Source of the DNA: Acidovorax sp. A79
Lineage (GTDB): Bacteria > Pseudomonadota > Gammaproteobacteria > Burkholderiales > Burkholderiaceae_C
Reading direction: 5' to 3'
DNA length: 64,000 bases
Assembly: GCF_041154505.1 (NCBI RefSeq)
Contig: NZ_AP028672.1
Location: forward strand, 3,140,501-3,204,500
Shown here: positions 5,284 to 61,523 of the stretch, piece by piece
Layout: every line of letters starts with the position of its first letter
Position numbering within the stretch: the first letter of the stretch is position 1
The notes under the pieces: model-generated
The model's input: the letters and a program-made list of their open reading frames with translations, nothing else
Told to the model about the DNA's origin: nothing
Databases searched by the model: none
Program-made: the position numbers and the translations under genes

Positions 5284-5853
5284 ATGGGCAACCGACTCAC
5301 ACAGATCGCCACGCGCACCGGCGACGCCGGCACCACCGGCCTGGGCAACAACGAACGCGTCTCCAAGGACAGCCTGCGCATCCATGCGCTCGGTGACGTG
5401 GATGAGCTCAACTCCCACATCGGCCTGCTGCTGTGCGAGCGCGTGCCGGAGGACGTGCGCGGCCTGCTCGTCGAGGTGCAGCACCAGTTGTTCAACCTGG
5501 GGGGCGAGCTGTCGATCCCGGGCTTCGAACTGCTCAAGCCGCAAGCGGTGCTGGCACTGGATGACGCCCTGGCCCACCACAACGCGGCGCTGCCGCGCCT
5601 GCAGGAATTCATCCTGCCCGCCGGCACCCGAGCCGCCGCGCAAGCCCATGTCTGCCGCACCGTGGCGCGCCGCGCCGAACGCGCCGTGGTCGCCCTGGGC
5701 AACGAAGAGGCGCTGAACGACGCGCCGCGCCAGTACCTCAACCGCCTCTCCGACCTGATGTTCGTCCTGGCCCGCGTGCTCAACCGCATGGATGGCGGGG
5801 ATGACGTGTACTGGAAAAGCGAGCGCCTGGCGCAGCAGAATGCTACTGAATAG
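5284..5853 (+). CDS. Cob(I)alamin adenosyltransferase (PduO type)
   Basis: A 189-residue cytoplasmic enzyme that transfers the adenosyl group of ATP to cob(I)alamin, giving adenosylcobalamin. The family's ATP-binding N-terminal motif is present (TRTGDAGTTGLGNNERVSK, residues 10-28), with the DVDELNSHIG segment and the C-terminal helix RAVVALGNEEALNDAPRQYLNRLSD. Start ATG 5284 gives the usual length; an upstream in-frame extension would read through the preceding terminator. The last residues (NATE) and the stop codon fall inside a dispersed repeat that begins here. No cobalamin riboswitch is visible upstream. Confidence 0.92.
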   Translation: MGNRLTQIATRTGDAGTTGLGNNERVSKDSLRIHALGDVDELNSHIGLLLCERVPEDVRGLLVEVQHQLFNLGGELSIPGFELLKPQAVLALDDALAHHNAALPRLQEFILPAGTRAAAQAHVCRTVARRAERAVVALGNEEALNDAPRQYLNRLSDLMFVLARVLNRMDGGDDVYWKSERLAQQNATE

Positions 5854-5900
5854 ATAGCTTCTGGCGCTTACCCAGTAAGCGCTGGAGAGTAATTTTCTAT
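5838..5900 (+). repeat. Dispersed 3'-end repeat, family 1, copy A
   Basis: AGAATGCTACTG..GATAGCTTCTGGCGCTTA.CCAG.TAAGCGCTGGAG: the ATAGCT box, the GCGCTTA / TAAGCGC inverted arms and the A/T-rich flanks of the family are present. It overlaps the end of the adenosyltransferase gene and supplies its stop codon. Confidence 0.75.
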
Positions 5901-5934
5901 AAATTCAACCCTGCCCGCTCCGGGTGGCGCTGCC

Positions 5935-6042
5935 CACCAGGGCAGCCAAGCAAGGGCCGCCCCGCAGCGAGGGCTGCGTCCCCCTTCCCGAGTCGCGTTA
6001 GCGATTCGAGAGAAGGGGAAGGCACGAAGTGCCTCAGGGGGA
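5935..6042 (+). repeat. Dispersed GC-rich repeat, family 2, copy 1
   Basis: About 108 bp reading CCACCAGGGC...AAGGGCCGCCCCGC...GCGTCCCCCTT...hairpin (CGAGTCGC / GCGATTCG)...AAGGCACGAAGTGCC...AGGGGG. The reverse complement of 42942-43053 follows the same order of blocks almost throughout. Confidence 0.65.
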
Positions 6043-6048
6043 TGCACC

Positions 6049-6471
6049 TTATCTCGGCGCCAGGATCGCCATGGTCAGCCGCGACACGCAGGTGAGCTCG
6101 CCCGCGTCGTTGACCATGTCGATGTGCCACACGTGCGTGGTGCGGCCCAGGTGGATGGGCCGGGCGGTGGCCGTCACCCAGCCGCTGGTGGCGGAGCGCA
6201 GGTGGTTGGCGTTGATGTCCAGGCCCACGGCGTTGTGGCCCTCGGGGCTGGCGTAGTAGGCGCCCACCGAGCCCAGCGACTCGGCCAGCACCACGCTCAC
6301 GCCGCCGTGCAGCAGCCCGAAGGGCTGTTTGGTGCGCTGGTCCACCGGCACGCGGCCGCGCAGGAAGTCGTCACCCAGTTCGATGATCTCGATGCCCAGG
6401 TGCGAGGCAGCGGTGTTGTGGTGGTCGGCGTTGAGTCGAGCCAGGTCGACGGGCTTTTTCCAGATGGGCAT
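6049..6471 (-). CDS. Hotdog-fold acyl-CoA thioesterase (YdiI/PaaI family)
   Basis: A 140-residue enzyme closely resembling E. coli YdiI/MenI, which hydrolyses aromatic and 1,4-dihydroxy-2-naphthoyl-CoA thioesters. Family blocks are clear: MPIWKKPVDLARLN at the start, QPFGLLHGGVSVVLAESLGS (the Glu of AES is the catalytic position), and RPIHLGRTTHVW. Start ATG 6471 gives the typical length and matches the YdiI N-terminus; a longer frame to 6537 exists. Physiological substrate unknown. It is convergent with the adenosyltransferase. Confidence 0.88.
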   Translation of the reverse strand: MPIWKKPVDLARLNADHHNTAASHLGIEIIELGDDFLRGRVPVDQRTKQPFGLLHGGVSVVLAESLGSVGAYYASPEGHNAVGLDINANHLRSATSGWVTATARPIHLGRTTHVWHIDMVNDAGELTCVSRLTMAILAPR

Positions 6472-6570
6472 GGTGGCTTCGGTCGGACAGAGGGATGAAT
6501 CTTTTCGGACCGGCCATTGTGCCCATCTTGCTCTCATGGGCGCAGCCCCGGCCTGGCGCCACCGTGGATC

Positions 6571-6631
6571 CGGCCCTGCCGGTCCACCGGAGGCGTCCCC
6601 CTTGAGGAACGGCGCGCAGCGCCCCAGGGGG
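6571..6631 (+). repeat. Dispersed GC-rich repeat, family 2, copy 3 (short form)
   Basis: GGCCCTGCCGGTCCACCGGAG followed by GCGTCCCCCTTGAGG, GGCGCGCAGCGCC and AGGGGG. It keeps the GCGTCCCCCTT block and the closing AGGGGG of family 2, with a different inner hairpin. It lies at the 3' end of the ABC binding protein at 6632. Confidence 0.5.
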
Positions 6632-7783
6632 TTACCCGATGAATTTGCCGTTGGCGCCCATCACGCCCAGGTCCAGGAAACGCGAGCCCACATAGGGGGC
6701 GCTGCCGGCGTAGTCGATCGTGAGGCCGCCCAGGTCGTTGCTGCGGATGCCGGCCAGCGCGTTGCGCAGCCTGGCGCGGGTCAGCTCGCGGCCGGCGCGC
6801 TCCAGGCCTTCGGCGAGCACGCGGGCGTTCACATAGCCCTCGAAGCTGCGGCTCGAGAATTCCTGAAAGCCCACCGCCTTCATGGCGCGCTGGTAGTCGC
6901 GCACCAGGGCAACGCTGGTGCGGCCGGCGTCGGGCAGCACCATCGACAGCGCGATGCCCGCCGCCTTGCCACCGAGCTGGCGCAGGTTGTCGCCGGACAG
7001 GGCCACGCTGGTCGCTGCCAGCGGCGTGCTGGGCGACACCTTCTTGAATTCGCTGACCAGCGCGGCCGACACGTCGCCCGCCGTCCCCAGCAGCACCGTC
7101 GTGGGCTTGGCCGCCACGGCCTGCCTGACCACGTCGGCCACCTGCGCGCCCTGTGCGTCGAGCTTGAACGCCTTGGGCGCGGGCTGCTGGGCCGCCTTCA
7201 TGGCGTTGTTCACATCGGCCAGGAATTCGCGGCCGAAGGCGGTGTCCTGGTAGACGATGGCCAGGTCGGTGATGCCCATGGCCACCAGCTTCTGCGTGAG
7301 GCGCTGGGCCTCGTCGGAGTAGCTGGCGCGCACGTGGAACACCGAGCGGTACTCGGCCTTGCGCAGCGACGTGGCGCCGCTTTGCGGGGCCACGTAGGGG
7401 ATCTGCGCCTCGTCCACCAGCGGCAGGATGCGCTGGTTGTTGGCCGTGCCCATGCACGACAGCAGCGCCACCACGCCGCCGTCGGCGATCAGCTTGCGCG
7501 CGTTCTCCTCCGAGCGGGCGGCGTCATAGCCGTCGTCCAGCGCCAGCAGCTTCAGCTCCCGGCCATGGATGCCGCGCACGTTCGCCTGGGCGATGCCCGC
7601 GTCCAGGCCCTGCTTGAGTTCCTTGCCCAGGCTGGCCAGGGCACCGGTCAGGCCGACGGAGCAGCCAATGGCCACGCTCCTGGCGTCCATCGGGTCCTGC
7701 ACGCCCACGGCGCGCGACGGGTTGGCAAAAAGCAGGCCGGCGCTGGCAGCGGCAAGGGACTGGGTGAACTGGCGACGTTGCAT
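6632..7783 (-). CDS. Branched-chain amino-acid type ABC binding protein (LivK-like), orphan
   Basis: A 383-residue periplasmic binding protein of the LivJ/LivK fold. The N-terminus MQRRQFTQSLAAASAGLLFANPSRAVG is a Tat-like or Sec signal. The mature domain shows IGCSVGLTGALASLGKELKQGLDAGIAQAN and later VALLSCMGTANNQRILPLVDEAQIPYVAPQSGA, typical of the family. No permease or ATPase lies next to it, so it must borrow a membrane complex or act in sensing. An AGGGTTAACCCT palindrome lies about 100 bp upstream. Start ATG 7783 is chosen because the signal peptide begins there. Confidence 0.88.
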   Translation of the reverse strand: MQRRQFTQSLAAASAGLLFANPSRAVGVQDPMDARSVAIGCSVGLTGALASLGKELKQGLDAGIAQANVRGIHGRELKLLALDDGYDAARSEENARKLIADGGVVALLSCMGTANNQRILPLVDEAQIPYVAPQSGATSLRKAEYRSVFHVRASYSDEAQRLTQKLVAMGITDLAIVYQDTAFGREFLADVNNAMKAAQQPAPKAFKLDAQGAQVADVVRQAVAAKPTTVLLGTAGDVSAALVSEFKKVSPSTPLAATSVALSGDNLRQLGGKAAGIALSMVLPDAGRTSVALVRDYQRAMKAVGFQEFSSRSFEGYVNARVLAEGLERAGRELTRARLRNALAGIRSNDLGGLTIDYAGSAPYVGSRFLDLGVMGANGKFIG

Positions 7784-7883
7784 GGCAGGAAAACTCACGG
7801 ACAAGAAGGCCACCAGCCCCGCGAAGGGCTGGTGGCCGGTGAAGAAAAAGGAAAACGGGGGGAGGCCTGGTGGTCCGACGACC

Positions 7884-7897
7884 AAGGGTTAACCCTG
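7884..7897. promoter_or_regulatory. Palindrome AAGGGTTAACCCTG, site 1
   Basis: A 12-bp perfect dyad (AGGGTTAACCCT) about 100 bp upstream of the LivK-like gene and downstream of the CoA-transferase. Two relatives occur in this window (9591-9606 and 56295-56309), so it looks like the operator of a shared regulator. The regulator is unknown. Confidence 0.5.
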
Positions 7898-7965
7898 ATT
7901 CTACCCAGGGCCTGTGACAAGACCATGTTCTCCCTGCCGGGCCGGGGGATTCGGCCGGGGCCTGG

Positions 7966-9495: not shown

Positions 9496-9590
9496 GAACA
9501 AACTCCGCGAAAAGAAAAGAGGCCACCCGCCCGGTGAGCGGATGGCCCCGTGGACAAAACCCAGGATGCTAGCCGTCGTTCCTTACAAAT

Positions 9591-9606
9591 TAAGGGTTAA
9601 CCCTTA
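9591..9606. promoter_or_regulatory. Perfect palindrome TAAGGGTTAACCCTTA, site 2
   Basis: A 16-bp perfect palindrome flanked by ACAAAT on both sides, between the CoA-transferase start (9495) and the permease stop (9638). It is the best-conserved of three related sites and is well placed to control the CoA-transferase. Confidence 0.6.
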
Positions 9607-9637
9607 CAAATGTGGTACGTCCGCTCACGCCCACAGA

Positions 9638-10927
9638 TTACGCCGCTTTGCGGTTGAGCAAGGCATACAGCAGGATGGCGCCGAACGTGGCCGTGCCGAT
9701 GCCGCCCAGCGCGAACTGGCCGAACTTGAGCGTGAAGTCGCCCGTGCCCAGGATGAGCGTGATGGCCGCGACGATCAGGTTCTTGTTCTGCGAGAAGTCC
9801 ACCTTGTTGTCCACCCAGATCTTGGCCCCGGCCACGGCGATCAGGCCGAACACCACGATGGAGACGCCCCCCATCACCGGCAGCGGAATGGTCTGGATCA
9901 GCGCGCCGAACTTGGGGGAAAAGCCCAGCACCAGCGCGAACACGCCCGCCAGCAGGAACACGGCGGTGGAATAGATCTTGGTCGCGGCCATCACGCCGAT
10001 GTTCTCGGCATAGGTCGTCACGCCCGTGCCGCCCACGCCGCCGCTCACCATGGTGGCCACGCCGTCGCCGATGAACGCACGGCCCATGTAGCGGTCCAGG
10101 TCGCGGCCGGTCATGGCCGTCACGGCCTTGATGTGGCCCAGGTTCTCCGCCACCAGGATGATGGCCACCGGGGCGATCAGCAGCATCGCGTTGCCGTCGA
10201 ACACCGGCGCGGCGAAGTTGGGCATGCCCACCCATGCCGCGTTCGCCAGGATCGACAGGTCGATGGGCTTGCCCAGGCCCAGGCCGTTGGTGAGCACCGC
10301 GTAGATGATGCTCGCCACGATCAGCCCCACCAGGATCAAGAGGCGCTGCACCATGCCGCGCGTGAGCACGGCCACCAGGCCCACGCTCACGAAGGTCACG
10401 ACCTGCATCCAGCTGTCGAAATTGCTCGCCGCCATGTTCTTGATCGGAATGCCCGCCAGGTTCAGCCCGATCACCGCGACGACCGAGCCCGTGACCACGG
10501 GCGGCATGAAGCGCTCGATCCAGCCCGTGCCGATGGCCTGCACCAGCGCGCCGATCAGCGTGTAGAGCAGGCCGCAGGCGATGATGCCGCCCAGGGCGAC
10601 GGCGATGTTGCCGTTGGCCCCCTTGCCCGCATAGCCCGTGGCCGCGATCACCACCCCGATGAAGGCAAAGCTCGAACCCAGGTAGCTGGGCACCCTGCCG
10701 CCCGTCACCAGGAAGAAGATCAGCGTGCCCACGCCGCTCATCAGGATGGCCACGTTGGGGTCGAACCCCATCAGGATGGGCGCCAGCACCGTGGCGCCGA
10801 ACATGGCGATCACGTGCTGCACGCCCATCGCCGTCGTCTGCGGCCAGGGCAGCCGTTCGTCGGGCGCGATCACTCCGCCCTGCTGCAGCACGGCCGCGCT
10901 TTTTTCTTGCCAGTTCATGAATCCCAT
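9638..10927 (-). CDS. Uracil/xanthine permease (NCS2, UraA-like)
   Basis: A 429-residue inner-membrane nucleobase:proton symporter with about 14 hydrophobic segments. NCS2 hallmarks are readable: the [15 protein letters not shown] segment near residue 80, the conserved [18 protein letters not shown] in the middle (Glu of AENLGH is the substrate-binding position in UraA), and [22 protein letters not shown]. Uracil is the likely substrate given the UraA-like core, but xanthine carriers share the fold. ATG 10927 has AAGGA 7 bp upstream. The gene appears monocistronic. Confidence 0.9.
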
Positions 10928-14552: not shown

Positions 14553-14608
14553 GGATATGCTATTAAATATATAGCTGTCGGCGCTGATGTATTCAGCGCT
14601 AGGGGCCC
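14553..14608 (+). repeat. Dispersed 3'-end repeat, family 1, copy B
   Basis: GGATATGCTATTAAATATATAGCTGTCGGCGCTGATGTATTCAGCGCTAGGGGCC contains the ATAGCTG box, GGCGCTGA / TCAGCGCT arms and GGCC end. It starts about 22 bp beyond the stop of the membrane-protein gene at 14631 (minus strand). Confidence 0.75.
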
Positions 14609-14630
14609 CAAAGACCCCAAGGCCCGTGGA

Positions 14631-17094: not shown

Positions 17095-17173
17095 ATTCGG
17101 AATTCCCCCTGCTGTCAAGCGGGTGACGGGGATGGCTGGCCTGCGCCCCGTGCCGCTGGTACGCTGCGTCGCC

Positions 17174-19249
17174 ATGGAGACAACACACAACACCCCGCCT
17201 TTCATTCCCCAGATCCGCCTGTACCAGGACTGGCTGCGCGACCAGCGCGGGCTGCAGTTCGACAGCTACGACGCCCTGTGGCGCTGGTCCACCACCGAGC
17301 TCGATGCCTTCTGGCAAAGCGTGTGGGACTACTTCAAGCTGGAGTCGCCCACGCCGCACACCGCCGTTCTGGGCCAGAACACCATGCCCGGCGCGCAGTG
17401 GTTCCCGGGCGCCCAGGTCAACTACGCGCGGCAGGCGCTGCGCCATGTGGACGCCGCCCACGCGGCCGGTCTGCCGGCCATCATCAGCCGCAACGAAAAG
17501 GGCCACCACCGCGAAATGAGCTGGCCCGAGCTGCGCCGCCAGGTCGCGTCGCTGGCGTTGCACCTGAAGGCCCAGGGCGTGGAGCCGGGCGACCGCGTGG
17601 CCGCCTACCTGCCCAACGTGCCGGAGGCGATGGTGGCCTTCCTCGCCACGGTGAGCATCGGCGGCGTGTGGAGCATCTGCGCGCCCGACATGGGCACCCA
17701 TGCGGTGCTCGACCGGTTCCGCCAGATCGAGCCCAAGGTGCTGATCGGCGTGGACGGCGTGACCTACGGCGGGCGCGACCACGACCGCACCGGCGTGCTG
17801 GCCGAGCTGCGCGCGGCGCTGCCCAGCCTGCGGCACGCGGTGTTGCTGGGCAATCTGGATGCTTCTGTTTCGATAGCTGGTTACGCAAGTTGGACAAGCG
17901 CTACAGCCAGAAATGATGCTGCAACTGAAGCTTTCGAACCGATGTGGCTGCCGTTCGACCACCCGCTGTGGATCGTCTATTCCAGCGGCACCACCGGCTT
18001 GCCCAAGCCCATCGTGCATGGCCACGGCGGCACGGTGCTGGTGGCGCTGCAGCTCAAGGTGCTGCACAACGACATCGGCTGCAGCTACGAGCCCAACAGC
18101 TTTGGCGAGCGCTACCACTGGTACAGCTCCACGGGCTGGGTGATGTGGAATGCACAGCTCTCGGGCCTGCTGTCGGGCACCACCTGCGTGATCTACGACG
18201 GCAACCCCGGCGGCAGCAAGGACCACCCCGACTGGGGCGTGCTGTGGCGCTTCGCGGCCGAGACGGGCGTGACCTTCTTCGGCGCGGGCGCGGCGTTTTT
18301 TGCCAACTGCATGAAGGCGGGCATCGCGCTGGCCGAATACGGCGACCTCACGCGCATCCGCGCCTTGGGTACCACCGGCTCGCCGCTGTCGCCCGAGGTG
18401 CAGGAATGGGGCACGGCGCAGTTCGAGGCCCTGGGCACGCACGACATCTGGTGGAACAACATCTCGGGCGGCACCGACTTTTGCGGCGCCTTCATCGGCG
18501 GCAATCGCGAGATGCCCCAGGTGCCCGGCGAGATGCAATGCCGCATGCTGGGCGCGGCCGTGGAATCCTGGAATGCCGAGGGCGTGCCGGTGATGGACGA
18601 GGTGGGCGAGCTGGTGTGCGCGCAGCCCATCCCGTCGATGCCGCTGTACCTGTGGGGGGACAAGGACGGTTCACGCTACCTGTCGAGCTACTTCGACATG
18701 TACCCGCCTGGCCACGGCCGCCAGCCCGGCGGCGGCGATGGCCCCGCGCGCATGGGCGCGGTGTGGCGCCACGGCGACTGGCTCAGGATCGGCGCCAACG
18801 GCGGCTGCGTCATCTACGGCCGCAGCGACGCCACCATCAACCGCCACGGCCTGCGCATGGGCACGAGCGAGATCTACAGCGCGGTCGAATCCCTGCCCGA
18901 GGTGCTCGACAGCCTGGTGGTGGACCTGGAATACCTGGGCCGAGAAAGCTACATGCCGCTGTTCGTGGTGCTGCGCCCCGGCAACGTGCTCGACGATGCC
19001 CTGCGCGCCCGCATCAACGGCGCGGTGCGCACGGCGCTGAGCCCGCGTTTCGTGCCCGACGACATCTTCGCGGTGGCCGAGGTGCCGCGCACCTTGAGCG
19101 GCAAGAAGCAGGAGCTGCCCATCAAGAAACTGCTGCTGGGCCAGCCCATCGAGAAGGTGGTGAACAAGGACGCCATGGCCAACCCGGGCTGCCTGGACTG
19201 GTATGTGGCGTTTGCCGCCGAGCGCGCGGCAGAAGTGCAAAATACATAG
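17174..19249 (+). CDS. aacS: Acetoacetyl-CoA synthetase, with a repeat-encoded insert
   Basis: A 691-residue AMP-forming ligase activating acetoacetate. The N-terminal ACAS block (YDALWRWSTTELDAFWQSVWDYF) and the P-loop YSSGTTGLPKPIVHGHGG (about residue 268) are typical, as are the later STGWVMWNAQLSGLLSG and the C-terminal LSGKKQELPIKKLL with the catalytic Lys. Residues about 229-251 (DASVSIAGYASWTSATARND...) are encoded by an in-frame copy of dispersed repeat family 1, lying just ahead of the P-loop. The last residues and the stop codon fall in another copy. Start ATG 17174 is chosen over 17123 by homology. Confidence 0.9.
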   Translation: METTHNTPPFIPQIRLYQDWLRDQRGLQFDSYDALWRWSTTELDAFWQSVWDYFKLESPTPHTAVLGQNTMPGAQWFPGAQVNYARQALRHVDAAHAAGLPAIISRNEKGHHREMSWPELRRQVASLALHLKAQGVEPGDRVAAYLPNVPEAMVAFLATVSIGGVWSICAPDMGTHAVLDRFRQIEPKVLIGVDGVTYGGRDHDRTGVLAELRAALPSLRHAVLLGNLDASVSIAGYASWTSATARNDAATEAFEPMWLPFDHPLWIVYSSGTTGLPKPIVHGHGGTVLVALQLKVLHNDIGCSYEPNSFGERYHWYSSTGWVMWNAQLSGLLSGTTCVIYDGNPGGSKDHPDWGVLWRFAAETGVTFFGAGAAFFANCMKAGIALAEYGDLTRIRALGTTGSPLSPEVQEWGTAQFEALGTHDIWWNNISGGTDFCGAFIGGNREMPQVPGEMQCRMLGAAVESWNAEGVPVMDEVGELVCAQPIPSMPLYLWGDKDGSRYLSSYFDMYPPGHGRQPGGGDGPARMGAVWRHGDWLRIGANGGCVIYGRSDATINRHGLRMGTSEIYSAVESLPEVLDSLVVDLEYLGRESYMPLFVVLRPGNVLDDALRARINGAVRTALSPRFVPDDIFAVAEVPRTLSGKKQELPIKKLLLGQPIEKVVNKDAMANPGCLDWYVAFAAERAAEVQNT
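17858..17927 (+). repeat. Dispersed repeat family 1, copy C, in-frame inside aacS
   Basis: ATGCTTCTGTTTCGATAGCTG...ACGCAAGTTGGACAAGCGCT...GCCAGAAATGATGC. It aligns without gaps to copy E (28540-28602), about 35 of 50 positions identical by hand count, including ATGCTTC, GATAGCTG, TGGACA and GCGCT. It contains no stop in the gene's frame. Confidence 0.75.
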
Positions 19250-19288
19250 CTGCCCGCGCTTGCGGGCTGTACGCTACAGCCCGGTTTG
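19237..19288 (+). repeat. Dispersed repeat family 1, copy D
   Basis: GCAAAATACATAGCTGCCCGCGCTTGCGGGCTGTACGCTACAGCCCGG. The aacS stop codon (TAG) is part of the ATAGCT box. It contains a GCCCGC-GCTT-GCGGGC hairpin and lies in the convergent gap before the LysR gene, so it could serve as a terminator. Confidence 0.7.
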
Positions 19289-20203
19289 ATCCATATCCGG
19301 GCCGGGGCGGGGCACGCTGGAAAAGCCCATCGCATGCTCGATGAAGCGCTCCACGAGCCGGCTGGCCTCCCCCGCGCGCCGCGCGAGCGCGATGCCCACC
19401 TTGAAGCCCGGCGGGTTGTCGGTGAGCGCCAGGCATTTCACGCCGGGCGGCACCACCAGCCGCGCGACGCCGGCCACCAGTCCCACGCCCAGGCCCGCGG
19501 CCACCAGGCTCATGATGGTCTGCACCTGCATGGCCTCCTGTGCCACGCGGGGTGAAAAGCCCGACAGCTGGCAGCGCAGAAGCGCCAGGGCGGACAGCCC
19601 GGGCACTTTGTCCTGCGGGTACATGATGAAGGGCTCGTCCGCCGCTTCCGAGAGCGCGATCGCGTCGCGCTTCGCCAGCGGGCCGTGCGCGGACACGGCG
19701 AGCACGAAATCGTCGCGGTCCATGGGCAGGAGCTCGAACGGCTCGGGGTGCAGAACCGGGTAGCGCACGAATCCCACGTCGAAGCGGCGCGCCAGCAGCC
19801 CGTCGAGGATTTCGGTCGATGTGGCCTCCGACAGCTCCAGCTCGATCTGCGGGTAGCGCGCCCGCACGGACGGGATCAGCTCCGGCAGCAGGGCATAGGT
19901 GGCCGATCCGATGATGCCCAGGCGCAGCAGGCCGCCCAGTCCCTCGCGCGCGTCCGCCACGGCCTGGCGGCAGCGCTCCGCATGAAACAGCGCCAGGTGC
20001 GCCTCGGGCAGCATGGCCTGGCCCTCGGCCGTCAGGCGCACGCCAGTGCTGTGGCGCTCGAACAGGCGGCTGCCCAGTTCCTCCTCCAGTTTGCGCACGG
20101 ACACCGACAGGGGCGGCTGGGCCATGTGCAGCAGCTCGGCGGTGCGGTGGAAGTTGCCGGTTTCCGCCAGGGTGACGAATTGGCGCAGCTGGCGCAGGTT
20201 CAT
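19274..20203 (-). CDS. LysR-family regulator of the acyl-CoA catabolic operon
   Basis: A 309-residue regulator. The N-terminal winged helix is plain (MNLRQLRQFVTLAETGNFHRTAELLHMAQPPLSVSVRKLEEELGSRLFERHSTGVRLTAEG, residues 1-60), followed by a two-lobe effector domain. It is transcribed divergently from the Bug gene at 20332, the first gene of a catabolic operon, with a CAAAC-N8-GTTTG dyad in between; this is the standard LysR arrangement. The effector is probably an acid or acyl-CoA of that pathway. Confidence 0.88.
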   Translation of the reverse strand: MNLRQLRQFVTLAETGNFHRTAELLHMAQPPLSVSVRKLEEELGSRLFERHSTGVRLTAEGQAMLPEAHLALFHAERCRQAVADAREGLGGLLRLGIIGSATYALLPELIPSVRARYPQIELELSEATSTEILDGLLARRFDVGFVRYPVLHPEPFELLPMDRDDFVLAVSAHGPLAKRDAIALSEAADEPFIMYPQDKVPGLSALALLRCQLSGFSPRVAQEAMQVQTIMSLVAAGLGVGLVAGVARLVVPPGVKCLALTDNPPGFKVGIALARRAGEASRLVERFIEHAMGFSSVPRPGPDMDQTGL

Positions 20204-28538: not shown

Positions 28539-28602
28539 TAAAATGCTTCAAAAATGATAGCTGCTTGCGCTTGATGGACAGGCGCTGGGGCCCATTTTGG
28601 TC
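28539..28602 (+). repeat. Dispersed 3'-end repeat, family 1, copy E
   Basis: TAAAATGCTTCAAAAATGATAGCTGCTTGCGCTTGATGGACAGGCGCTGGGGCCCATTTTGGTC, the copy with the most complete flanks. It begins 33 bp after the Bug stop codon and runs into a terminator. Confidence 0.8.
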
Positions 28603-28604: not shown

Positions 28605-28628
28605 AAAGGCCCTCGCGGGCCTTTTTTT
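28605..28628 (+). terminator. Rho-independent terminator of the catabolic operon
   Basis: An 8-bp stem AAAGGCCC / GGGCCTTT closed by a TCGC tetraloop, ending in seven T residues. It immediately follows repeat copy E. Confidence 0.9.
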
Positions 28629-28665
28629 GCCTCCTGCCACCTGTTGTGACCGGCGCGCCGCCATG

Positions 28666-28716
28666 CCAGGGCCGCTCCGCCGCGCTGGCGACGGCCCCCT
28701 TCAGGGGCTGAGGGCT
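28666..28716 (+). repeat. Dispersed GC-rich repeat, family 2, copy 4
   Basis: CAGGGCCGCTCCGCCGCGCTGG..GACGGCCCCCTTCAGGGG. It matches the GGGCCGCCCCGCCGCGCTGG...CCCCCT part of copy 2 (reverse strand) closely, with one or two changes per block. Lies at the 3' side of the minus-strand Bug gene. Confidence 0.5.
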
Positions 28717-42941: not shown

Positions 42942-43053
42942 CACCCCCCTATGTCGCTTCGCTCCTTCCCCCCGCTCTCGCAGCGCTGCGCGCAGCGGGC
43001 AGGGGGACGCTCCCAGCGCGGCGGGGCGGCCCTTGCGCGGGAGCCCTGGTGTG
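42942..43053 (-). repeat. Dispersed GC-rich repeat, family 2, copy 2
   Basis: Reads on the minus strand as CCACACCAGGGC...GCAAGGGCCGCCCCGC...GAGCGTCCCCCT...GAGAGCGGGGGGAAGGAGCGAAGCG...AGGGGGG. It has the same block order as copy 1 (5935-6042), including the AAGG-hairpin-AGGGGG end, and lies in the minC-minD gap. Confidence 0.65.
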
Positions 43054-43965: not shown

Positions 43966-44232
43966 ATGGCTTCTTTCCTGTCCTTCCTGCTCGGCGAGAA
44001 GAAGAAAACCGCCAGCGTCGCCAAGGAGCGGCTGCAGATCATCCTGGCGCACGAGCGCAACGGCCGCAACGCCTCGGAGCCCGACTACCTGCCCGCGCTG
44101 CAGCGCGAACTGGTGGCGGTGATCTCCAAGTACGTGAAGATCAACCCCGACGACCTCAAGGTGCACCTGGAGCGCCAGGACAACCTGGAGGTGCTGGAGG
44201 TCAAGATCGAGCTGCCCGACACCGTGCGCTGA
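43966..44232 (+). CDS. minE: Cell division topological specificity factor MinE
   Basis: An 88-residue MinE. The N-terminal membrane/MinD-binding part ([28 protein letters not shown]) and the dimerisation domain ([36 protein letters not shown]) match the family. It begins 3 bp after minD (GGGAG upstream). A reverse-oriented family-1 repeat begins 15 bp after its stop. Confidence 0.96.
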
Positions 44233-44247
44233 GGTCCTGCATCCAAG

Positions 44248-44300
44248 CCAAATTGGCCCCTGGCGCTTATCTGGTAAGCGCTGGCAGCTATCAAAATTGA
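44248..44300 (-). repeat. Dispersed 3'-end repeat, family 1, copy F (reverse)
   Basis: CCAAATTGGCCCCTGGCGCTTATCTGGTAAGCGCTGGCAGCTATCAAAATTGAT; the reverse complement shows the family order TTTGATAGCTG-CCAGCGCTTACC...AAGCGCCAGGGGCC. Sits between the minE stop and the convergent MOSC gene. Confidence 0.75.
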
Positions 44301-44319
44301 TGAACCCGATGGGGCTTGG

Positions 44320-48482: not shown

Positions 48483-49820
48483 TCAGGCCGTGGCGACGGC
48501 CCGGGGCGCGCGCACGCGCTCGTCGCCCAGGAAGCCGAAGTTCATCGCGGGCTGTTCGCCGCTGATGAGCTCGGCCAGCGCCTTGCCCGAGCCCGCGCCG
48601 TGCGTCCAGCCCAGCGTGCCGTGGCCCGCATTCACCCACAGCTTGCCCACGCGGGTCTGCCCGATGAACGGGATGTTGGTGGGCGTGGCCGGGCGCAGGC
48701 CGGTCCAGTACTGCGGGTCGCCGCCTTCTTCGGGCGTGCGGGTGTCGCACACGCCGGGCAGGATGGCCTCGATGCGGCGCGACAGCATGTGGCAGCGTGC
48801 GCGGGCCAGTGTGCTGTCCAGCGTCAGGTCCCAGCCATTGAGTTCGATGGTGCCCGCCACGCGCAGGTGGTTGCCCAGGCGGCTCATGGCGATCTTCTTG
48901 CCGTCGTCGATGGTGGAGACCATGGGCGCGCCCTCGGGCTTGAGCAGCGGGAACGTGGCGCTGTAGCCCTTGCCAGGGTAGATCGGCAGGTCCACGCCCA
49001 CGCTGCGCAACAGCGGCGCGCTGTAGGAGCCGCAGGCCACGACCACGGCGTCGGCCTTCAGGATGAAGTCTTTTTTGCCCCCACCGCTGGACTGGCGTGC
49101 CATGACAGCTACCGAATCAATAGCGTTGCCGATCTTGTTCAGGCGCAGCACGTCGTGGCCATAGAGGAACTGCGCGCCGCGCGCCATGCAGCGGCGGGCG
49201 AGTTCCTGCGTGAACACGCGCGCGTCGCCGCTCTCGTCGGTGCTGGTGTAGGTGCCGCCGGTGATCTTGTCGCCGTAGGCCTTGAACGCGGGCTCGATCT
49301 GCAGCAGCTCGTCGCGGCTCACCAGGCGCCGTTGCACGCCGTGCTTGCGCATGAGCTCCACCGCATGGCCGGCGGCGTCAAAGGATTTCTGGTCGGTGTA
49401 GAAGTGGGCAATGCCGCGTTCCAGCCGGTTGTATTCGATGCCCGTGGTGCTGACCAGGTCCTTGAGGGCGGCATGGCTGTACGCGCCCAGCGCCACGATC
49501 TGCTGCACATTGCGCTCGAACGCGGCGTCGTTGCACTGCGCGAGGAACTGCAGGCCCCAGCGCCATTGCTGCCAGTCCATCTGCGGGCGAAACAGCAGCG
49601 GCGCTTCCTTGTCGAACATCCACTTGAGCGCCTTGAGCGGCGCCTCGCGGTTGGCCCAGGGCTCGCAGTAGCTCACCGAGATCTGTGCTGCATTGGCAAA
49701 ACTGGTTTCGAGCGCAGCATCGGGCTGGCGGTCGATCACGATGACTTCGTGACCGCGTTCCAGCAGGTGCCACGCCGTGCTGGTGCCGATGATGCCTGCG
49801 CCGAGAACAATGGTTTTCAT
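48483..49820 (-). CDS. dadA: D-amino-acid dehydrogenase small subunit, with a repeat-like insert
   Basis: A 445-residue membrane-associated flavoprotein oxidising D-amino acids to 2-oxo acids. The FAD motif VLGAGIIGTSTAWHLLERGHEV is at residues 4-25. VVACGSYSAPLLRSVGVDLPIYPGKGYSATFP and WVNAGHGTLGWTHGAGSGKALAELISG are standard DadA blocks. Residues about 232-251 (IDSVAVMARQSSGGGKKD) are encoded by a stretch that aligns, without gaps, to dispersed repeat family 1. It is divergent from a LysR regulator, as for catabolic dad genes. Confidence 0.9.
   Translation of the reverse strand: MKTIVLGAGIIGTSTAWHLLERGHEVIVIDRQPDAALETSFANAAQISVSYCEPWANREAPLKALKWMFDKEAPLLFRPQMDWQQWRWGLQFLAQCNDAAFERNVQQIVALGAYSHAALKDLVSTTGIEYNRLERGIAHFYTDQKSFDAAGHAVELMRKHGVQRRLVSRDELLQIEPAFKAYGDKITGGTYTSTDESGDARVFTQELARRCMARGAQFLYGHDVLRLNKIGNAIDSVAVMARQSSGGGKKDFILKADAVVVACGSYSAPLLRSVGVDLPIYPGKGYSATFPLLKPEGAPMVSTIDDGKKIAMSRLGNHLRVAGTIELNGWDLTLDSTLARARCHMLSRRIEAILPGVCDTRTPEEGGDPQYWTGLRPATPTNIPFIGQTRVGKLWVNAGHGTLGWTHGAGSGKALAELISGEQPAMNFGFLGDERVRAPRAVATA
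49068..49127 (-). repeat. Diverged dispersed repeat family 1, copy H, in-frame inside dadA
   Basis: The minus strand reads AACGCTATTGATTCGGTAGCTG...CAGCGGTGGGGGCAAAAAAG. ATTGATTxGGTAGCTG, the CAGCGxT box and the GGGGGC-A6 tail follow the family order at family spacing; the middle is diverged. No stop in frame. Confidence 0.5.
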
Positions 49821-50935: not shown

Positions 50936-51514
50936 TCAGTGCGGCCGGCCCACCACGAGATGGCACGAGGCCATGGGCGCCAGCGTCTGCCCCACCGTGC
51001 ATCGGGTCTCATCACCCGGGCCCTGGATGCGGTGCGCGGCGGTCACGCCCACGGCGGTGAGCCGCTGGGGGCGGTCCGTGGTGTTGCGCACCTCGTAGGC
51101 GTGCAGGTAGTCGGCGAATGCACGTTCCAGGTCGGGGTGGTCGGGAATGTCGGCCACGCCCCCCGCCGGGTTGTCCAGCGGGACATCGCTGGAGGGCACC
51201 GCGATCGCCTGTCCGCCCCACGGCATGCACAGCAGCGCCGCGCAGGCCAGCAGCCCCGGCACGATGGCGCGGACCACGCCGTGTCCCGCGTGGCGCAGCA
51301 GGTGGCGGGCCGCGGCGGCCAGGAGCAGCACCAGCACCAGCAGCCCCCATTGCGACAGCGTGGGCACGGCGGCCGGGGCCGCCAGCGGGGCATAGGCCAC
51401 CGCGCCCACGGGCGCGCCCTGGGCCCAGGCGGCGGGGGCTGCAGCGGCGGCGGCCCACAGCAGGGCGATGCGTGGGGCGGTTGCGGGGCGACGGGAGGGA
51501 TGGTTTTTTTGCAT
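50936..51514 (-). CDS. Exported protein with a mid-chain IPTL-type sorting motif
   Basis: A 192-residue protein: signal peptide (residues 14-32, ending AWAQG), then VPTLSQWGLLVLVLLLAAAARHLLR at about residues 50-74, closely matching the IPTL-CTERM signal (PTLSEWG, hydrophobic helix, basic end) recognised by exosortase XrtH. In normal targets that signal is at the extreme C-terminus; here about 115 residues follow, including a second hydrophobic helix. The family is annotated in databases as midcut-by-XrtH. The C-terminal globular part is unrecognised. Confidence 0.7.
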   Translation of the reverse strand: MQKNHPSRRPATAPRIALLWAAAAAAPAAWAQGAPVGAVAYAPLAAPAAVPTLSQWGLLVLVLLLAAAARHLLRHAGHGVVRAIVPGLLACAALLCMPWGGQAIAVPSSDVPLDNPAGGVADIPDHPDLERAFADYLHAYEVRNTTDRPQRLTAVGVTAAHRIQGPGDETRCTVGQTLAPMASCHLVVGRPH

Positions 51515-51807
51515 GAAATTGCCTTGTAGCGCTTGTTTTAAAAGGGTGAGTGGCTATTGTTTTGGGAGTGACGCGCGAGCCCTGCGACGGGACCCGGGCC
51601 GCCGTCGGTCAAGGCCAAGCCCACGCTGCGCCGGTTGGCCGCGAAAAGGGCGGCGGCGATGCCGCGGACAAGGAACATGGTGGCGCGCACGGAGAAGAAG
51701 CGAAGGAGGGCTGCCGCGCATGCTAGGCAGCATTCACGGCGCGGCTTGACTGTGCGTTTCAGGGCGCTTGACTGCCCGTGCCGCCGAGGGATCGGCAAAA
51801 GCGGGTG
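51515..51807. other. Intergenic gap between two minus-strand genes
   Basis: About 290 bp with no convincing gene; an 86-codon minus-strand ORF is present but unrecognised and has no ribosome site. Two copies of GCTTGACTG (51746 and 51768) form a direct repeat near the AraC gene end. The left part holds the promoter of the IPTL protein. Confidence 0.4.
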
Positions 51808-56963: not shown

Positions 56964-56986
56964 CTCGGACTGGGAAGAACAGGGTT

Positions 56987-58858
56987 TTATGCAGCCAGGC
57001 GTTTTTCCAGCAGGGCCTTGGTTTCCAGCAGGGCCGTGGGCAGGTGGTAGGCCAGTTGCTCGAAGTGGGCATCGTGCAGCTTGAACTCATCGGCCCAGGC
57101 CGCCTTGTCGATGCTGGTCACGGCGTCGAACTTCTGGGCGCTGAAATCCAGACCCGTCCAGTTGATCTCGGCGTACTGGGGCGCCACGCCGAACATGGTT
57201 TCCTGGCCTTGGGCCTGGCCTTCAATGCGGTCGATCATCCACTTGAGCACGCGCATGTTGTCGCCGTAGCCGGGCCAGACGAACTTGCCGGCCTCGTCCT
57301 TGCGGAACCAGTTCACGCAGAAGACCTTGGGCACGGCCTTGCCGGTGGCGGCGATCTTGCCTTCCATGTTCAGCCAGTGCTGGAAGTAGTCGCTCATGTT
57401 GTAGCCGCAGAACGGCAGCATGGCGAAGGGGTCGCGGCGCACCACGCCCTGGGCGCCGAAGGCGGCGGCGGTGGTCTCGGAGCCCATGGTGGCGGCCATG
57501 TACACGCCTTCCGTCCAGGTGCGGGCTTCCGTCACCAGCGGCACGGTGGTGGAGCGGCGGCCGCCGAAGATGAAGGCGTCGATCGCCACGCCGTTGGCGT
57601 CGTCCCACTGCGCATCGAGCGCCGGGTTGTTGGTGGCGGCCACCGTGAAGCGCGAGTTGGGGTGGGCCGCCTTGGCGCCGGTTTCCTTGGCGATCTGGGG
57701 CGTCCAGTCCTTGCCTTGCCAGTCGATCAGGTGGTCCGGGAGCTTGCCGGTGTCCTTTTCCATGCCTTCCCACCACACGTCGCCGTCGTCGGTCAGGGCC
57801 ACGTTGGTGAAGATCACGTCCTTGTCCAGGCTCTTCATGCAGTTGGGGTTGGTGTGCATGTTCGTGCCGGGGGCCACGCCGAAGTAGCCGGCTTCAGGGT
57901 TGATGGCATACATCTTGCCGTCGGCATGGGGCTTGATCCAGGCGATGTCGTCACCGATGGTGGTGACCTTCCAGCCGGCAAAGCCTGCTTCGGGCGGCAC
58001 CAGCATCGAGAAGTTGGTCTTGCCGCAGGCGCTGGGGAAGGCGGCGGCCACGTGGTACTTCTTGCCGGCGGGGTTGGTCACGCCCAGGATGAGCATGTGC
58101 TCGGCCAGCCAGCCCTGGTCGCGGCCCATGGTCGATGCGATGCGCAGGGCCAGGCACTTCTTGCCCAGCAGCGCGTTGCCGCCGTAGCCCGAGCCGTACG
58201 ACCAGATCTCGCGCGTCTCGGGGTAGTGCACGATGTACTTGACCTTGGGATTGCAGGGCCAGCTGGTCGTGTCCTTTTCACCTTCGGCCAGGGGGGCGCC
58301 CACGGTGTGCATGCAGGGCACGAACTCGCCTTCCACGCCCAGCACGTCGTACACGGCCTTGCCCATGCGGGTCATGAGGCGCTGGTTCACGGCCACGTAG
58401 GCGCTGTCGGTCAGCTCCACGCCGATGTGGGCGATGTGGCTGCCCAGGGGGCCCATGCTGAAGGGCACCACGTACATGGTGCGGCCCTTCATGCAGCCGT
58501 CGAACAGGGGCTGCAGCGTGGCCCGCATTTCAGCGGGGGCCATCCAGTTGTTGGTGGGGCCTGCGTCTTCCTTGGCGGCCGAGCAGATGTAGGTGCGGTC
58601 TTCCACGCGGGCCACGTCCGACGGGTCGGACCAGGCCAGGAAGCTGCCGGGGCGCTTGGCGGGGTTGAGCTTCTTGAAGGTGCCGGCGTCGACCAGCTGC
58701 TGGCACAGGCGGTCGTACTCTTCCTTGCTGCCGTCGCACCAGTAGATGGTGTCGGGCTTGCACAGGGCGGCCATGTCGGCCACCCAGGCGAGCAGCCGGG
58801 CGTTCTTGACGTAAGCGGGGGCGTTGAGATTCAGGCCCTGCATGGTGGGTGCGTTCAT
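56987..58858 (-). CDS. pckG: Phosphoenolpyruvate carboxykinase (GTP)
   Basis: A 623-residue enzyme converting oxaloacetate and GTP to PEP, the gateway of gluconeogenesis from acids. Motifs: FPSACGKTN (kinase-1a P-loop), [12 protein letters not shown] (kinase-2), RRSTTVPL, and the active-site Cys in the P-loop region as in GTP-dependent enzymes. The start ATG 58858 has AGGA upstream; a 5'-extended frame exists to 58921. A 17/18 inverted repeat lies in its leader, and it is monocistronic between two terminators. Suits a cell growing on organic acids. Confidence 0.95.
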
Positions 58859-58883
58859 CGGGAGCTTCCTAAGTTGAAAAACA

Positions 58884-58964
58884 GTTTTTTCAAAGGAAGC
58901 GGACCCGGTGGATCGCGGCAAGGCCTGGCGCAGTTGCGATGCTGAGCGCTGCCTTTGAAAAAAC
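58884..58964 (-). promoter_or_regulatory. Long inverted repeat in the pckG leader
   Basis: Arms 58884-58901 (GTTTTTTCAAAGGAAGCG) and 58947-58964 (CGCTGCCTTTGAAAAAAC) are complementary at 17 of 18 positions, with a 45-nt loop. In the pckG transcript this would fold into a long stem ending 26 nt before the start codon; such a structure could control expression. Confidence 0.55.
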
Positions 58965-59154
58965 GGCTTTCGTGCTCAGTCGGCGGGCGGGAGCGTGGAT
59001 CAGCCCCACGGGGTGGAGGCTATTTCCACGGATTCCGCGGGTCGGCTGGGGTGTCAATTTTATGAATCTGCCGACCGCTTGTCTGTCAGACTGGGGCTAA
59101 AACCATGCAAAAGATGCATGGGGTTATGCATCGCAATCCGCCCTGTCCCGCCCT
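58965..59154. other. pckG upstream region
   Basis: About 190 bp. Contains the minus-strand promoter of pckG (a TTGACA at 59053-59058 minus and A/T-rich stretches) and three ATGCAT repeats at 59115-59140. No gene seen. Confidence 0.4.
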
Positions 59155-59874
59155 TCAGGTGCTGGGCTGGCCTGTCTGGCCGGCCTGCCACCGCGCATGG
59201 CCCGCCTTGCGCAACTCGCACGCCGGGCAGGTGCCGCAGCCGTAGCCCCAGGCATGCAGCGTGTCGCGCACCCCGTGGTAGCAGGTGTGCGACTCGGTGA
59301 TGATGAGATCCACCAGCGCGTCGCCGCCCAGGGTGCGGGCCAGCTCCCAGGTGGCGGCCTTGTCCAGCCACATGAGCGGCGTCTCGAACGTGAAGCGCTG
59401 CCCCATGCCCAGCGACACGGCGACCTGCAGCGCCTTGAGCGTGTCGTCGCGGCAGTCGGGGTAGCCCGAGAAGTCGGTTTCGCACATGCCGCCCACCAGC
59501 GTGTGCAGCCCGCGCCGGTAGCCCACGGCGGCGGCCAGGTTGAAGAACAGCAGGTTGCGCCCCGGCACGAAGGTGTTGGGCAGGCCGGCGGCGGTCATCT
59601 GGATCTCGGCGTCGCTGGTCAGCGCCGTGTCGCTGATGCGGCCCAGCACGGCCAGGTCGATCATGTGGTCGTCGCCGAGCCGGTCACGCCATGGCCCGAA
59701 GCGGGACCGCAGGGCCGCCAGCACGGCCTGCCGGGCCTGCAGCTCCACATGGTGGCGCTGGCCGTAGTCGAAGCCGATGGTTTCCACGCGCTCGAACTGC
59801 GTGAGCGCCCAGGCCAGGCAGGTGGTGGAGTCCTGGCCACCGGAAAAAAGGACGAGGGCGTGTCCGGGTCTCAT
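59155..59874 (-). CDS. queC: 7-cyano-7-deazaguanine synthase QueC
   Basis: A 239-residue PP-loop ATPase that makes preQ0 from 7-carboxy-7-deazaguanine, on the queuosine/archaeosine path. The PP-loop SGGQDSTTC is at residues 11-19. The C-terminal zinc site has Cys in SHTCYHG and in [13 protein letters not shown]. No queD/queE lies adjacent, and no preQ1 riboswitch is visible upstream. Confidence 0.94.
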
Positions 59875-59906
59875 GGGGTCTCCTGGTGACGGGGGTGGTG
59901 CAAGGC

Positions 59907-59933
59907 GAAAAAAAGCCCCGCGCAGCGGGGCTT
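59907..59933 (-). terminator. Rho-independent terminator upstream of queC
   Basis: On the minus strand, AAGCCCCGC / GCGGGGCTT form a 9-bp stem with a 3-nt loop, ending in seven or eight T residues. It ends the transcript of the 48-residue ORF. Confidence 0.88.
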
Positions 59934-59955
59934 GTGGCGGTGCCAGGGCAATCGA

Positions 59956-60102
59956 TCAGGCCATGTACACGGCGATGAAGGCCAGCAGGAACATCATGAT
60001 GCCGCCGACCACGGGCAGCACCACGGGAATCACGTGAACCACGTTTTCCACGGGATCGTGCGGGAGCGATTCGGGGGCGTGCGTAGTGTGGTGGTCGGAC
60101 AT
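59956..60102 (-). CDS. Small (48-residue) single-span membrane protein
   Basis: A 48-residue ORF: a His-rich N-terminus MSDHHTTHAPESLPHDPVEN and a single hydrophobic helix (residues about 24-46, VIPVVLPVVGGIMMFLLAFIAVYMA). It has its own terminator 23 bp downstream. No family recognised; small His-rich membrane proteins often accompany respiratory complexes or copper handling, which is only an analogy. It is too short to appear in usual annotations. Confidence 0.6.
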   Translation of the reverse strand: MSDHHTTHAPESLPHDPVENVVHVIPVVLPVVGGIMMFLLAFIAVYMA

Positions 60103-60182
60103 GGTGTGGGCTCCAGATGCTTAAAACTTGCGCAATTCTAGCCGCGCCGGCGTGCACGGGGCTGAAAACCCCGCGCCGGGGG

Positions 60183-61406
60183 TCAGATCAGGTCGGCCTC
60201 CATGCCCGCCGAACGCAGCTTGCCCAGCACCTCGTCCACGTGCGCCTTGCTCCTTGTCTGCAGGACCAGCTCGATCTCCACGTTCTGCGCGGCCAGCATG
60301 GTGAATGCGCGCTGGTGGTGCACTTCCTCGATGTTCGCGCCCGCGTCGGCCACGGTGGCGGTGATGCGCGCGAGCACGCCCGGCACGTCGCGCGCGCTGA
60401 CCTTGATGCGCGCCAGCCGGCCCGAGCGCACCATGCCGCGCTCGATGATGGCGGCCAGCAGCAGCGGATCGATGTTGCCCCCCGAGAGCACCAGCCCCAC
60501 GCGCTTGCCCCTGAAGCGGGCGGGGTGGCGCACCAGCGCCGCCAGGGCCGCGGCGCCCGCGCCCTCGACCAGGGTCTTTTCGATCTCCAGCAGCATCAGC
60601 ACGGCCTGCTCGATATCGCCTTCGTCCACCAGCACCAGGTCGTCCACCAGGCGCTGCACCACCTCCTGGGTGATCTTGCCCGGGGTGCCCACGGCAATGC
60701 CCTCGGCGATGGTCGAGGTGCCCATGGGGTGCTGCGTGTGCCGCACGGCGTTGACCATCGACGGAAAGCGCGCCGCCTGCACGCCCACGATCTCGATGCC
60801 GGGCTTGAGCGCCTTGGCCGCCGTGGCCATGCCGGCGATCAGCCCGCCCCCGCCGATGGCGACGACCAGCATGTCCAGATCGGGCTGGGCGGCGAGCATC
60901 TCCAGCGCGACCGTGCCCTGGCCCGCGGCAATGGCTTCGTCGTCGTAGGGGTGCACGAACGTCAGCCCCTGCGCATCGGCCAGCCCGTAGGCGTGGGCCC
61001 GGGCTTCTTCGAGCGTGTCGCCGTGCAGCACCACCTCGGCGCCGAAGCCGCGGGTGCGCTCCACCTTCACGCCGGGCGTGAAGCGCGGCATCACGATCAC
61101 CGCGCGCAGGCCCAGGCGCTGCGCGTGGTAGGCCACGCCCTGGGCATGGTTGCCCGCGCTCATGGCCACCACACCCGGCGTCGTTCCGGGCGCCGCGCCG
61201 CGGGCACGTTCCGCGTCGACCAGCAAGGTGAGCCGGTTGCAGGCGCCCCGCTCCTTGAACGAGGCCGTGAACTGCAGGTTCTCGAACTTGAGGAATACCT
61301 GCGCGCCCACGATCTGCGAGAGCGTCTTGGATTCCACACAGGGGGTGTCCAGCACCTGGCCCTGCAGGCGGGTGGCGGCGTCTCGGATGTCTTGGAGGGT
61401 CAGCAT
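60183..61406 (-). CDS. ilvA: Threonine dehydratase with C-terminal ACT domain
   Basis: A 407-residue PLP enzyme that deaminates threonine to 2-oxobutyrate, first step to isoleucine. The PLP lysine is in TASFKERGACN (about residue 57), the phosphate-binding GGGGLIAGMA is near 178, and the C-terminus holds an ACT-like regulatory region (KVSARDVPGVLARITATVADAGANIEEVHHQRAF). With one ACT domain it resembles the catabolic/allosteric TdcB-IlvA intermediate class. ATG 61406 chosen; the frame to 61508 crosses a dispersed repeat. Confidence 0.92.
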   Translation of the reverse strand: MLTLQDIRDAATRLQGQVLDTPCVESKTLSQIVGAQVFLKFENLQFTASFKERGACNRLTLLVDAERARGAAPGTTPGVVAMSAGNHAQGVAYHAQRLGLRAVIVMPRFTPGVKVERTRGFGAEVVLHGDTLEEARAHAYGLADAQGLTFVHPYDDEAIAAGQGTVALEMLAAQPDLDMLVVAIGGGGLIAGMATAAKALKPGIEIVGVQAARFPSMVNAVRHTQHPMGTSTIAEGIAVGTPGKITQEVVQRLVDDLVLVDEGDIEQAVLMLLEIEKTLVEGAGAAALAALVRHPARFRGKRVGLVLSGGNIDPLLLAAIIERGMVRSGRLARIKVSARDVPGVLARITATVADAGANIEEVHHQRAFTMLAAQNVEIELVLQTRSKAHVDEVLGKLRSAGMEADLI

Positions 61407-61460
61407 GGCGCCATTGTGGCGCAGGCCCGCGTGCCGCAGGCCCCCCGGCATGGACATGGG

Positions 61461-61523
61461 AAGAAAATGGCCGCCAGCGCTTGAGGGGTAAGCGCTGAAT
61501 GCTATCAAAATGGAAGCATTTAC
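61461..61523 (-). repeat. Dispersed 3'-end repeat, family 1, copy G
   Basis: On the minus strand it reads AAATGCTTCCATTTTGATAGC...CAGCGCTTACCCCTCAAGCGCTGGCGGCCATTTTC, starting at the norR stop codon (TAAATGC). It separates norR from ilvA. Confidence 0.8.

Follow-up and report, generated by a model that had tools for sequence, protein, structure and literature searches.

A 64,000-nucleotide stretch of Acidovorax sp. A79 (contig NZ_AP028672.1, positions 3,140,501 to 3,204,500; the whole stretch is called the window and its genome G000) carries nine copies of a dispersed motif of approximately 63 bp. Six of them, starting at 5838, 14553, 19237, 28539, 44248, and 61461, had been noted in a preliminary description of the sequence, and all six were recovered at these positions. 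A position weight matrix enlarged the family by three further copies, at 17873 (+ strand), 49112 (- strand), and 51557 (- strand). The copies and one adjoining stem are listed below. The corresponding orthologous sites are named by the anchors 5854, 14571, 17873, 19246, 28557, 44291, 49112, 51557, and 61505; other G numbers denote other genomes, and L numbers denote fetched loci or stretches.

5838..5900, + strand: motif copy that includes the stop codon of the cobalamin adenosyltransferase gene (5284-5853)
14555..14617, + strand: motif copy between two minus-strand genes
17857..17919, + strand: motif copy (anchor 17873) within the acetoacetyl-CoA synthetase coding sequence (17132-19249); newly found
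19230..19292, + strand: motif copy that includes the acetoacetyl-CoA synthetase stop codon
28541..28603, + strand: motif copy approximately 35 bp past a TctC-family gene
28605..28624, + strand: ordinary intrinsic-terminator-like stem adjoining the 28541 copy, outside the motif
44245..44307, - strand: motif copy 3' of the minE stop codon (gene 43966-44232)
49066..49128, - strand: motif copy (anchor 49112) within the coding sequence of a DAO-family FAD oxidoreductase (48483-49820); newly found
51511..51573, - strand: degenerate motif copy (anchor 51557); newly found
61459..61521, - strand: motif copy at the stop codon of a gene (61520-63085) for a norR-like sigma-54 activator

The matrix search was iterated over 41 stretches of G000 (864,000 bases; 15% of the genome) and yielded 111 copies, a density that extrapolates to approximately 750 copies per genome. 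The weakest listed copy scored 30 bits, compared with 8.6 bits for the best reversed-sequence score. A whole-genome pattern search with up to three mismatches gave 688 matches versus 7 for the reversed pattern; in such pattern searches, a near-palindromic copy may be counted twice, once per strand. The motif occurs about once per 8 kb, and both strands are used throughout the sampled stretches (54 of the 111 copies lie on the + strand). Its gap-free consensus is TTTGCTAY-N7-RTAGCT-NNYN-GCGCTT-N7-AAGCGC-TRGNGGCC-NNTTT, in which two dyads (i.e., GCTAY/RTAGC and GCGCTT/AAGCGC) are preceded, separated, and followed by A/T tracts. Informative columns span approximately 63 bp and hold 55 to 68 bits. 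The shared elements described for the six original copies hold with some departures: the ATAGCT box is present in five copies but reads ATAGCA in the 61461 copy; the GCGCTT/AAGCGC arms are recognizable as a type in all six but are imperfect in the 14553, 19237, and 28539 copies; and a GGCC-like end is found in all six. With the ATAGCT box as the fixed reference, the 7-bp loop at the motif center reads either GATGGAY or the reverse complement of this, RTCCATC. An Rfam scan of the window gave no family at the gathering threshold. A plasmid search with one copy as the query returned 2 records, and 37 stretches from viral contigs (L324-L360) carry an exact pattern match, with two matches each in four contigs; these stretches are possibly prophage flanks.

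The placement of the copies relative to genes was assessed with a home-made codon-usage gene caller, which gives approximate starts; 2 of the 16 in-gene placements were checked further. Intergenic DNA accounts for 93 of the 111 copies, with 55 flanked by tandem, 28 by convergent, and 10 by divergent gene pairs; another 16 fall within called genes, and the last 2, at stretch ends, are not among the 93. By intergenic length, approximately 56 tandem, 14 convergent, and 23 divergent placements would be expected. Placement relative to stop codons is nonrandom, with 67 of the 111 copies within 35 bp of a stop, compared with 11.8% of random positions. The bias persists among intergenic copies (65/93 versus 30.3% of random intergenic positions; p ~7e-15), and no significant proximity to start codons was detected in the same set (38/93 versus 34% expected; p 0.19). 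All six original copies are indeed no more than approximately 35 bp from a called stop, with the stop codon inside the repeat at the adenosyltransferase and acetoacetyl-CoA synthetase genes and a copy at the norR stop. The strict 3' placement that had been proposed is thus better described as a strong bias, given the 16 in-gene and 10 divergent copies.

No clear orientation preference accompanies this bias. Between tandem genes, the split is 32 copies on the gene strand versus 23 on the opposite strand, and the in-gene copies are divided between 6 on the gene strand and 10 on the opposite strand. There is also no replichore polarity (22/52 and 27/53 copies on the + strand, with the origin set by GC skew near 3.0 Mb), and a replichore-polar motif of the Chi or FtsK-orienting polar sequence (KOPS) type was ruled out by this lack of orientation bias. 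Among 39 stretches of 20 kb, counts were Poisson-like (dispersion of 1.0, or 0.72 for the 81 copies scoring at least 50), with no excess clustering of copies. Low-GC (<0.62) segments of 5 kb, which serve as only a proxy for acquired DNA, contained 3 copies in 15 segments versus 107 in the 157 others. On the second replicon (166 kb), a single 20-kb stretch (L155; G000 C2:60001-80000) carries 6 copies, compared with a chromosomal mean of 2.5.

The inverted repeat was evaluated as a possible RNA hairpin. In the 111 copies of G000, 742 of 999 stem cells were paired, compared with a shuffle mean of 725.7 (a 2% excess; 6 of 500 shuffles reached 742), and there was no clear excess in the 60 copies of G165 (435 versus 434.6) or the 45 copies of G167 (241 versus 237.6). 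The 5' dyad showed no pairing excess in any of these three sets. Mutual information across the 111 copies exceeded the shuffled maximum for a single pair of columns, positions 6 and 10, which lie outside the stem. The commonest inner stem in G167, GCGCAT...CTAGCGC, has noncomplementary inner bases. The near independence of the stem columns and this stem-breaking dialect argue against an RNA hairpin as the maintained unit. The T run of the motif is A-rich in many copies, and a terminator scan of 14.6 kb, covering 4 of the 9 window copies, flagged none of them; the sole 8-pair stem with a long T run in that scan directly follows the 28541 copy. At two loci of Curvibacter and Hylemonella (L091, ~10749; L102, ~10698), box A is fused to what appears by eye to be a GC-rich intrinsic terminator after the adenosyltransferase gene.

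The two in-gene copies of the window allowed the origin of the motif to be examined against protein alignments, for which the DAO gene was compared in 18 genomes and the synthetase gene in 17 (G150 is without an acetoacetyl-CoA synthetase ortholog). Both proteins align through the motif site without insertion, even in congeners with few copies (a difference of 0 to 2 codons), and these protein loops differ by just a few residues in distant solved homologs. In box A of the DAO gene, 67 of 72 codons end in A or T in 12 many-copy genomes, compared with 3 of 36 in 6 few-copy genomes; the corresponding values for the synthetase gene are 70 of 84 in 12 many-copy genomes and 9 of 35 in 5 few-copy genomes. 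Flanking codons are mostly GC-ending in many-copy and few-copy genomes alike (7-17% AT-ending). Because protein length is constant and AT-ending codons mark the copy-rich genomes, these two copies are not insertions: at both sites, coding sequence that was already there spells the motif through base substitutions. The C terminus of the adenosyltransferase, which encodes the 5' part of the motif, has an equal number of codons in A. temperans, which is without the copy at this site. A miniature inverted-repeat transposable element (MITE) would differ in two respects, since no inserted sequence was found at the two in-gene loci and the ends of the consensus are not inverted repeats.

A transposase of the type associated with repetitive extragenic palindromes (REPs; the transposase is referred to as RAYT) was then considered as a mobilizer. 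The preliminary description had suggested looking for such a gene, and one is present: Y1_Tnp has a single match in G000 (C1:4327940). It has no motif copy within 5 kb and does not track copy number. Y1_Tnp matches occur in 112 of 150 family genomes and 44 of 47 genus genomes. All 6 few-copy members of the genus carry the gene, and none was found in 3 drafts (82-90% complete) with 165 to 463 motif matches. RAYT/Y1_Tnp was ruled out as the mobilizer because it is near-ubiquitous regardless of copy number. Two motif-rich genomes hold many Y1 transposase matches, with 37 in G194 (mostly full-length IS200-like elements) and 20 in G015.

At orthologous sites, conservation ranges widely. The adenosyltransferase site has a copy in 14 of 16 loci named Acidovorax (the exceptions are A. 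temperans and strain NO-1), and among the other 64 adenosyltransferase loci, L091, L102, and L124 have a copy near the gene. At the 14571 junction, 7 of 8 loci reach a matrix score of at least 15, one of them weakly (15.6 bits). For norR, 23 loci were fetched, of which 3 were without a readable 3' end; 19 of the 20 readable genus orthologs have a copy at the stop codon, one displaced by approximately 100 bp. The copy past the TctC gene is present in 2 of 8 orthologs, both from the window's own species. Alignment of the window with five congeners, some of which leave parts of it unaligned, showed copies in 4/5 at 5854, 4/5 at 14571, 5/5 at 17873, 3/5 at 19246, 0/5 at 28557, 2/5 at 44291, 5/5 at 49112, 1/5 at 51557, and 5/5 at 61505. 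Junction alignment recovered no relative at 51557 or 19246 and just G160 and G165 at 44291, where more than 2.5 kb separates the flanks in G161, G167, and G177. After removal of 3 of the 19 norR loci (displaced or near-identical), pairwise identity among the remaining 16 fell from 0.75 over the 17 motif columns of highest information to 0.62 over 24 middling ones and 0.42 over the 15 of lowest information; the downstream flank, without realignment for indels, gave 0.37. The boxes are retained at orthologous sites while the spacers diverge.

The motif also varies between lineages in a manner resembling dialects. An A occupies position 14 in 34 of 45 copies from G167, 19 of 111 from G000, and 6 of 60 from G165; for a T at position 23, the respective values are 24 of 45, 0 of 111, and 1 of 60. 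At orthologous intergenic sites, the form typical of G167 is found at 3 of 4 in that genome and at 2 of 4 in G177, and the two A. delafieldii copies score best with the G167 matrix. Further variants, with few copies each, occur at Curvibacter, Hylemonella, Rhodoferax, and Polaromonas loci. Within G167, a subtype reads AGGCAT instead of GCGCAT (position 11 is G in ~29% of 45 copies).

The distribution of the motif was surveyed with patterns that follow the G000 dialect and therefore undercount other dialects. Pattern matches number 37 to 694 in 41 of the 47 genus genomes and 1 to 6 in the remaining 6. Across the GTDB family, at least one match was seen in 57 of 150 genomes and more than 10 matches in 25; in a sample of the order, 41 of 300 genomes have any match, and none outside the family exceeds 4, a level also reached by the reversed control. 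Thus, among the genomes surveyed, the motif is abundant solely in the GTDB family of the window. The competence gene comEC was detected in 44 of 47 genomes of the genus, 5 of the 6 few-copy genomes among them, and was not found in two genomes that carry copies.

The profile search of the genome and its relatives therefore upholds a conserved, dispersed, 3'-end-biased family that uses both strands. A motif that is strand-neutral, dialect-bearing, formed in place at the loci tested, concentrated after genes, and rare in low-GC DNA resembles DNA-uptake signals. By analogy with these signals, we read the motif, with a probability of approximately 0.45, as a double-stranded DNA recognition motif kept at its sites, its most likely role being that of a DNA-uptake (self-recognition) signal. 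The unit under selection or drive would then be the double-stranded DNA motif rather than an RNA hairpin or a transposon, and its likeliest reader would be the type IV pilus/competence machinery, which may prefer motif-bearing DNA for uptake. Under such a molecular drive, alleles on fragments with a better match would enter and recombine more often, so that motifs persist at tolerant sites; a change in the receptor would shift the motifs jointly into dialects. Somewhat more tentatively, Acidovorax and related Comamonadaceae may have independently evolved DNA self-recognition for natural transformation, based on a 63-bp, A/T-tracted motif with two dyads and species dialects. Natural transformation has been described in A. 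temperans, A. facilis, and Verminephrobacter (PMC4212676). A. temperans gave transformants with its own species' DNA only, and uptake by V. eiseniae looked selective, with no uptake signal named in that part of the report (PMC4212676).

The comparison with known systems is mixed. Uptake signal sequences (USS) of Pasteurellaceae such as Haemophilus are similar to the motif in their many genomic copies, their core with A/T tracts, and their lineage variants, and they are reported to evolve by point mutation rather than insertion (PMC7811141). The differences from USS are that the motif is approximately 63 bp with two dyads rather than a 9-bp core and occurs about once per 8 kb in another bacterial family. 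DNA uptake sequences (DUS) of Neisseriaceae, including Neisseria, likewise form dialects between species (PMC3630211); they occupy permissive core-genome sites and are absent from recently acquired genes (PMC2397512). Unlike the motif, DUS are 10 to 12 bp, several times more abundant, and in inverted pairs do act as terminators, and recombination has been favored over point mutation as the source of many new DUS (PMC2397512). The motif shares with both kinds of signals a very high copy number on both strands and lineage dialects with a common core; because it lacks their short core, it is classed as working like an uptake signal and not as a member of DUS or USS.

Several points weigh against an uptake signal. 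The motif is longer than the known uptake cores of 9 to 12 bp and, with a spacing of ~8 kb, sparser than DUS. Its 55 to 68 bits are far more (four to five times) than the ~14 bits needed to mark its sites, an excess that would be easier to explain if the copies descended from one another by copying. In-place origin was seen for two in-gene copies only, and the intergenic copies may be insertions. Counts in 20-kb stretches show no greater evenness than a Poisson distribution. The dialect shift is incomplete, with the G000 form retained at 19246 in G167 and G177 and roughly at 5854 in G177. The norR columns were compared after the loci had been chosen by matrix score (at least 25; 19 of 20 passed). 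Given its presence in few-copy genomes and the failure to find it in two carriers, comEC does not discriminate. Two of four Acidovorax species tested gave no transformants (PMC4212676), and failed interspecies transformation can also be explained by sequence divergence or restriction.

The leading alternative, which we regard as unlikely, is that the motif is the site of an abundant sequence-specific DNA-binding protein that organizes the nucleoid or chromosome. The need for the protein would keep the sites, spots after genes would least disturb promoters and coding sequence, and the dialect would drift with the protein. Dyad boxes at fixed spacing, near-zero covariation, the lack of a clear strand preference, upkeep in place, and dialects fit this explanation equally well. 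However, a more than 100-fold range of counts among congeners (1 to 694) would be odd for a core chromosome function, and 55 to 68 bits over 63 bp exceeds the usual content of one protein site. Less probable still is an old REP- or MITE-like mobile repeat, inserted long ago, mostly after genes, and now decaying while purifying selection or gene conversion keeps the boxes. An information content far beyond the need for marking suggests such common descent, and the patchy copy number across genomes, the restriction of the TctC-gene copy to the window's own species (2/8 orthologs), and the RTAG box beside the palindrome, which recalls GTAG-tagged REPs, are consistent with it. Nevertheless, the two in-gene copies have no inserted sequence relative to few-copy genomes, conservation at orthologous sites is strongly position-dependent, copies show no excess clustering, and RAYT occurs in all 6 few-copy genus genomes with no motif within 5 kb of the G000 gene. 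The mobile REP-like element of the preliminary description is accordingly not supported by the in-gene copies or by the independence of RAYT from copy number.

The other function proposed there, an intrinsic terminator or a hairpin stabilizing mRNA 3' ends, fares worse and appears very improbable. It would account for the 3'-end bias, the GC-rich inverted repeat with its short trailing T run, the 28 copies in convergent regions where approximately 14 are expected by length, the small excess of stem pairing in G000, and the Curvibacter and Hylemonella loci at which box A meets an apparent terminator. Against these stand the near-zero covariation, the stem disrupted in the G167 dialect, the use of both strands without preference, the 16 of 111 copies inside called genes, the A-rich T runs, and the failure of the terminator scan to flag any of 4 copies.

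If the motif is an uptake signal, its dialects would help to account for the transformation of A. temperans by DNA of its own species alone, and the reported species barrier in Acidovorax transformation would become directly testable. Two bacterial families are known to take up DNA with a strong sequence preference (PMC7811141); another signal, unrelated to theirs and much longer, would allow convergent uptake systems to be compared and would provide a genome-readable marker of DNA exchange partners in a common environmental family. If another protein is the reader, a 55- to 68-bit motif with dialects, spelled into coding sequence at some sites, would still need a cause.

The family remained nameless in the literature searched. 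A full-text search for motif strings, repeats, and uptake sequences in Comamonadaceae, judged by titles and abstracts and with subscription papers mostly outside its coverage, returned no description. Word searches of the available text of the RepRanger paper (PMC12306157) and the GTAG/CGTC paper (PMC3733652) gave no Comamonadaceae names, and the available part of a Rhodoferax genome paper mentions just CRISPR (PMC2755013). Of the named repeats, REPs, bacterial interspersed mosaic elements (BIMEs), and GTAG-tagged repeats share with the motif a high copy number, an intergenic bias, and a palindromic core with an adjoining RTAG box (PMC3733652). The motif differs from REP/BIME elements in showing no RAYT association or excess clustering, in having in-gene copies that were not inserted, and in losing its stem across dialects. 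The Beta-proteobacterial repeat element (BRE; Hot et al. 2011) is, like the motif, dispersed in Comamonadaceae, including Acidovorax (PMC3110155). By description alone, BRE is unlike the motif: Bordetella BREs are 75 to 91 bp (one partial) and average 69% GC, with no more than 29 copies in a genome, some of them in tandem (PMC3110155).

The window also contains a second, GC-rich dispersed repeat of the GGGCCGCCCCGC...GGGGGA type at 5935-5997, 28665-28700, and 42989-43051. This GGGCCGCCCCGC repeat, which is possibly related to BRE, also occurs 3' of the adenosyltransferase gene in many Acidovorax loci.

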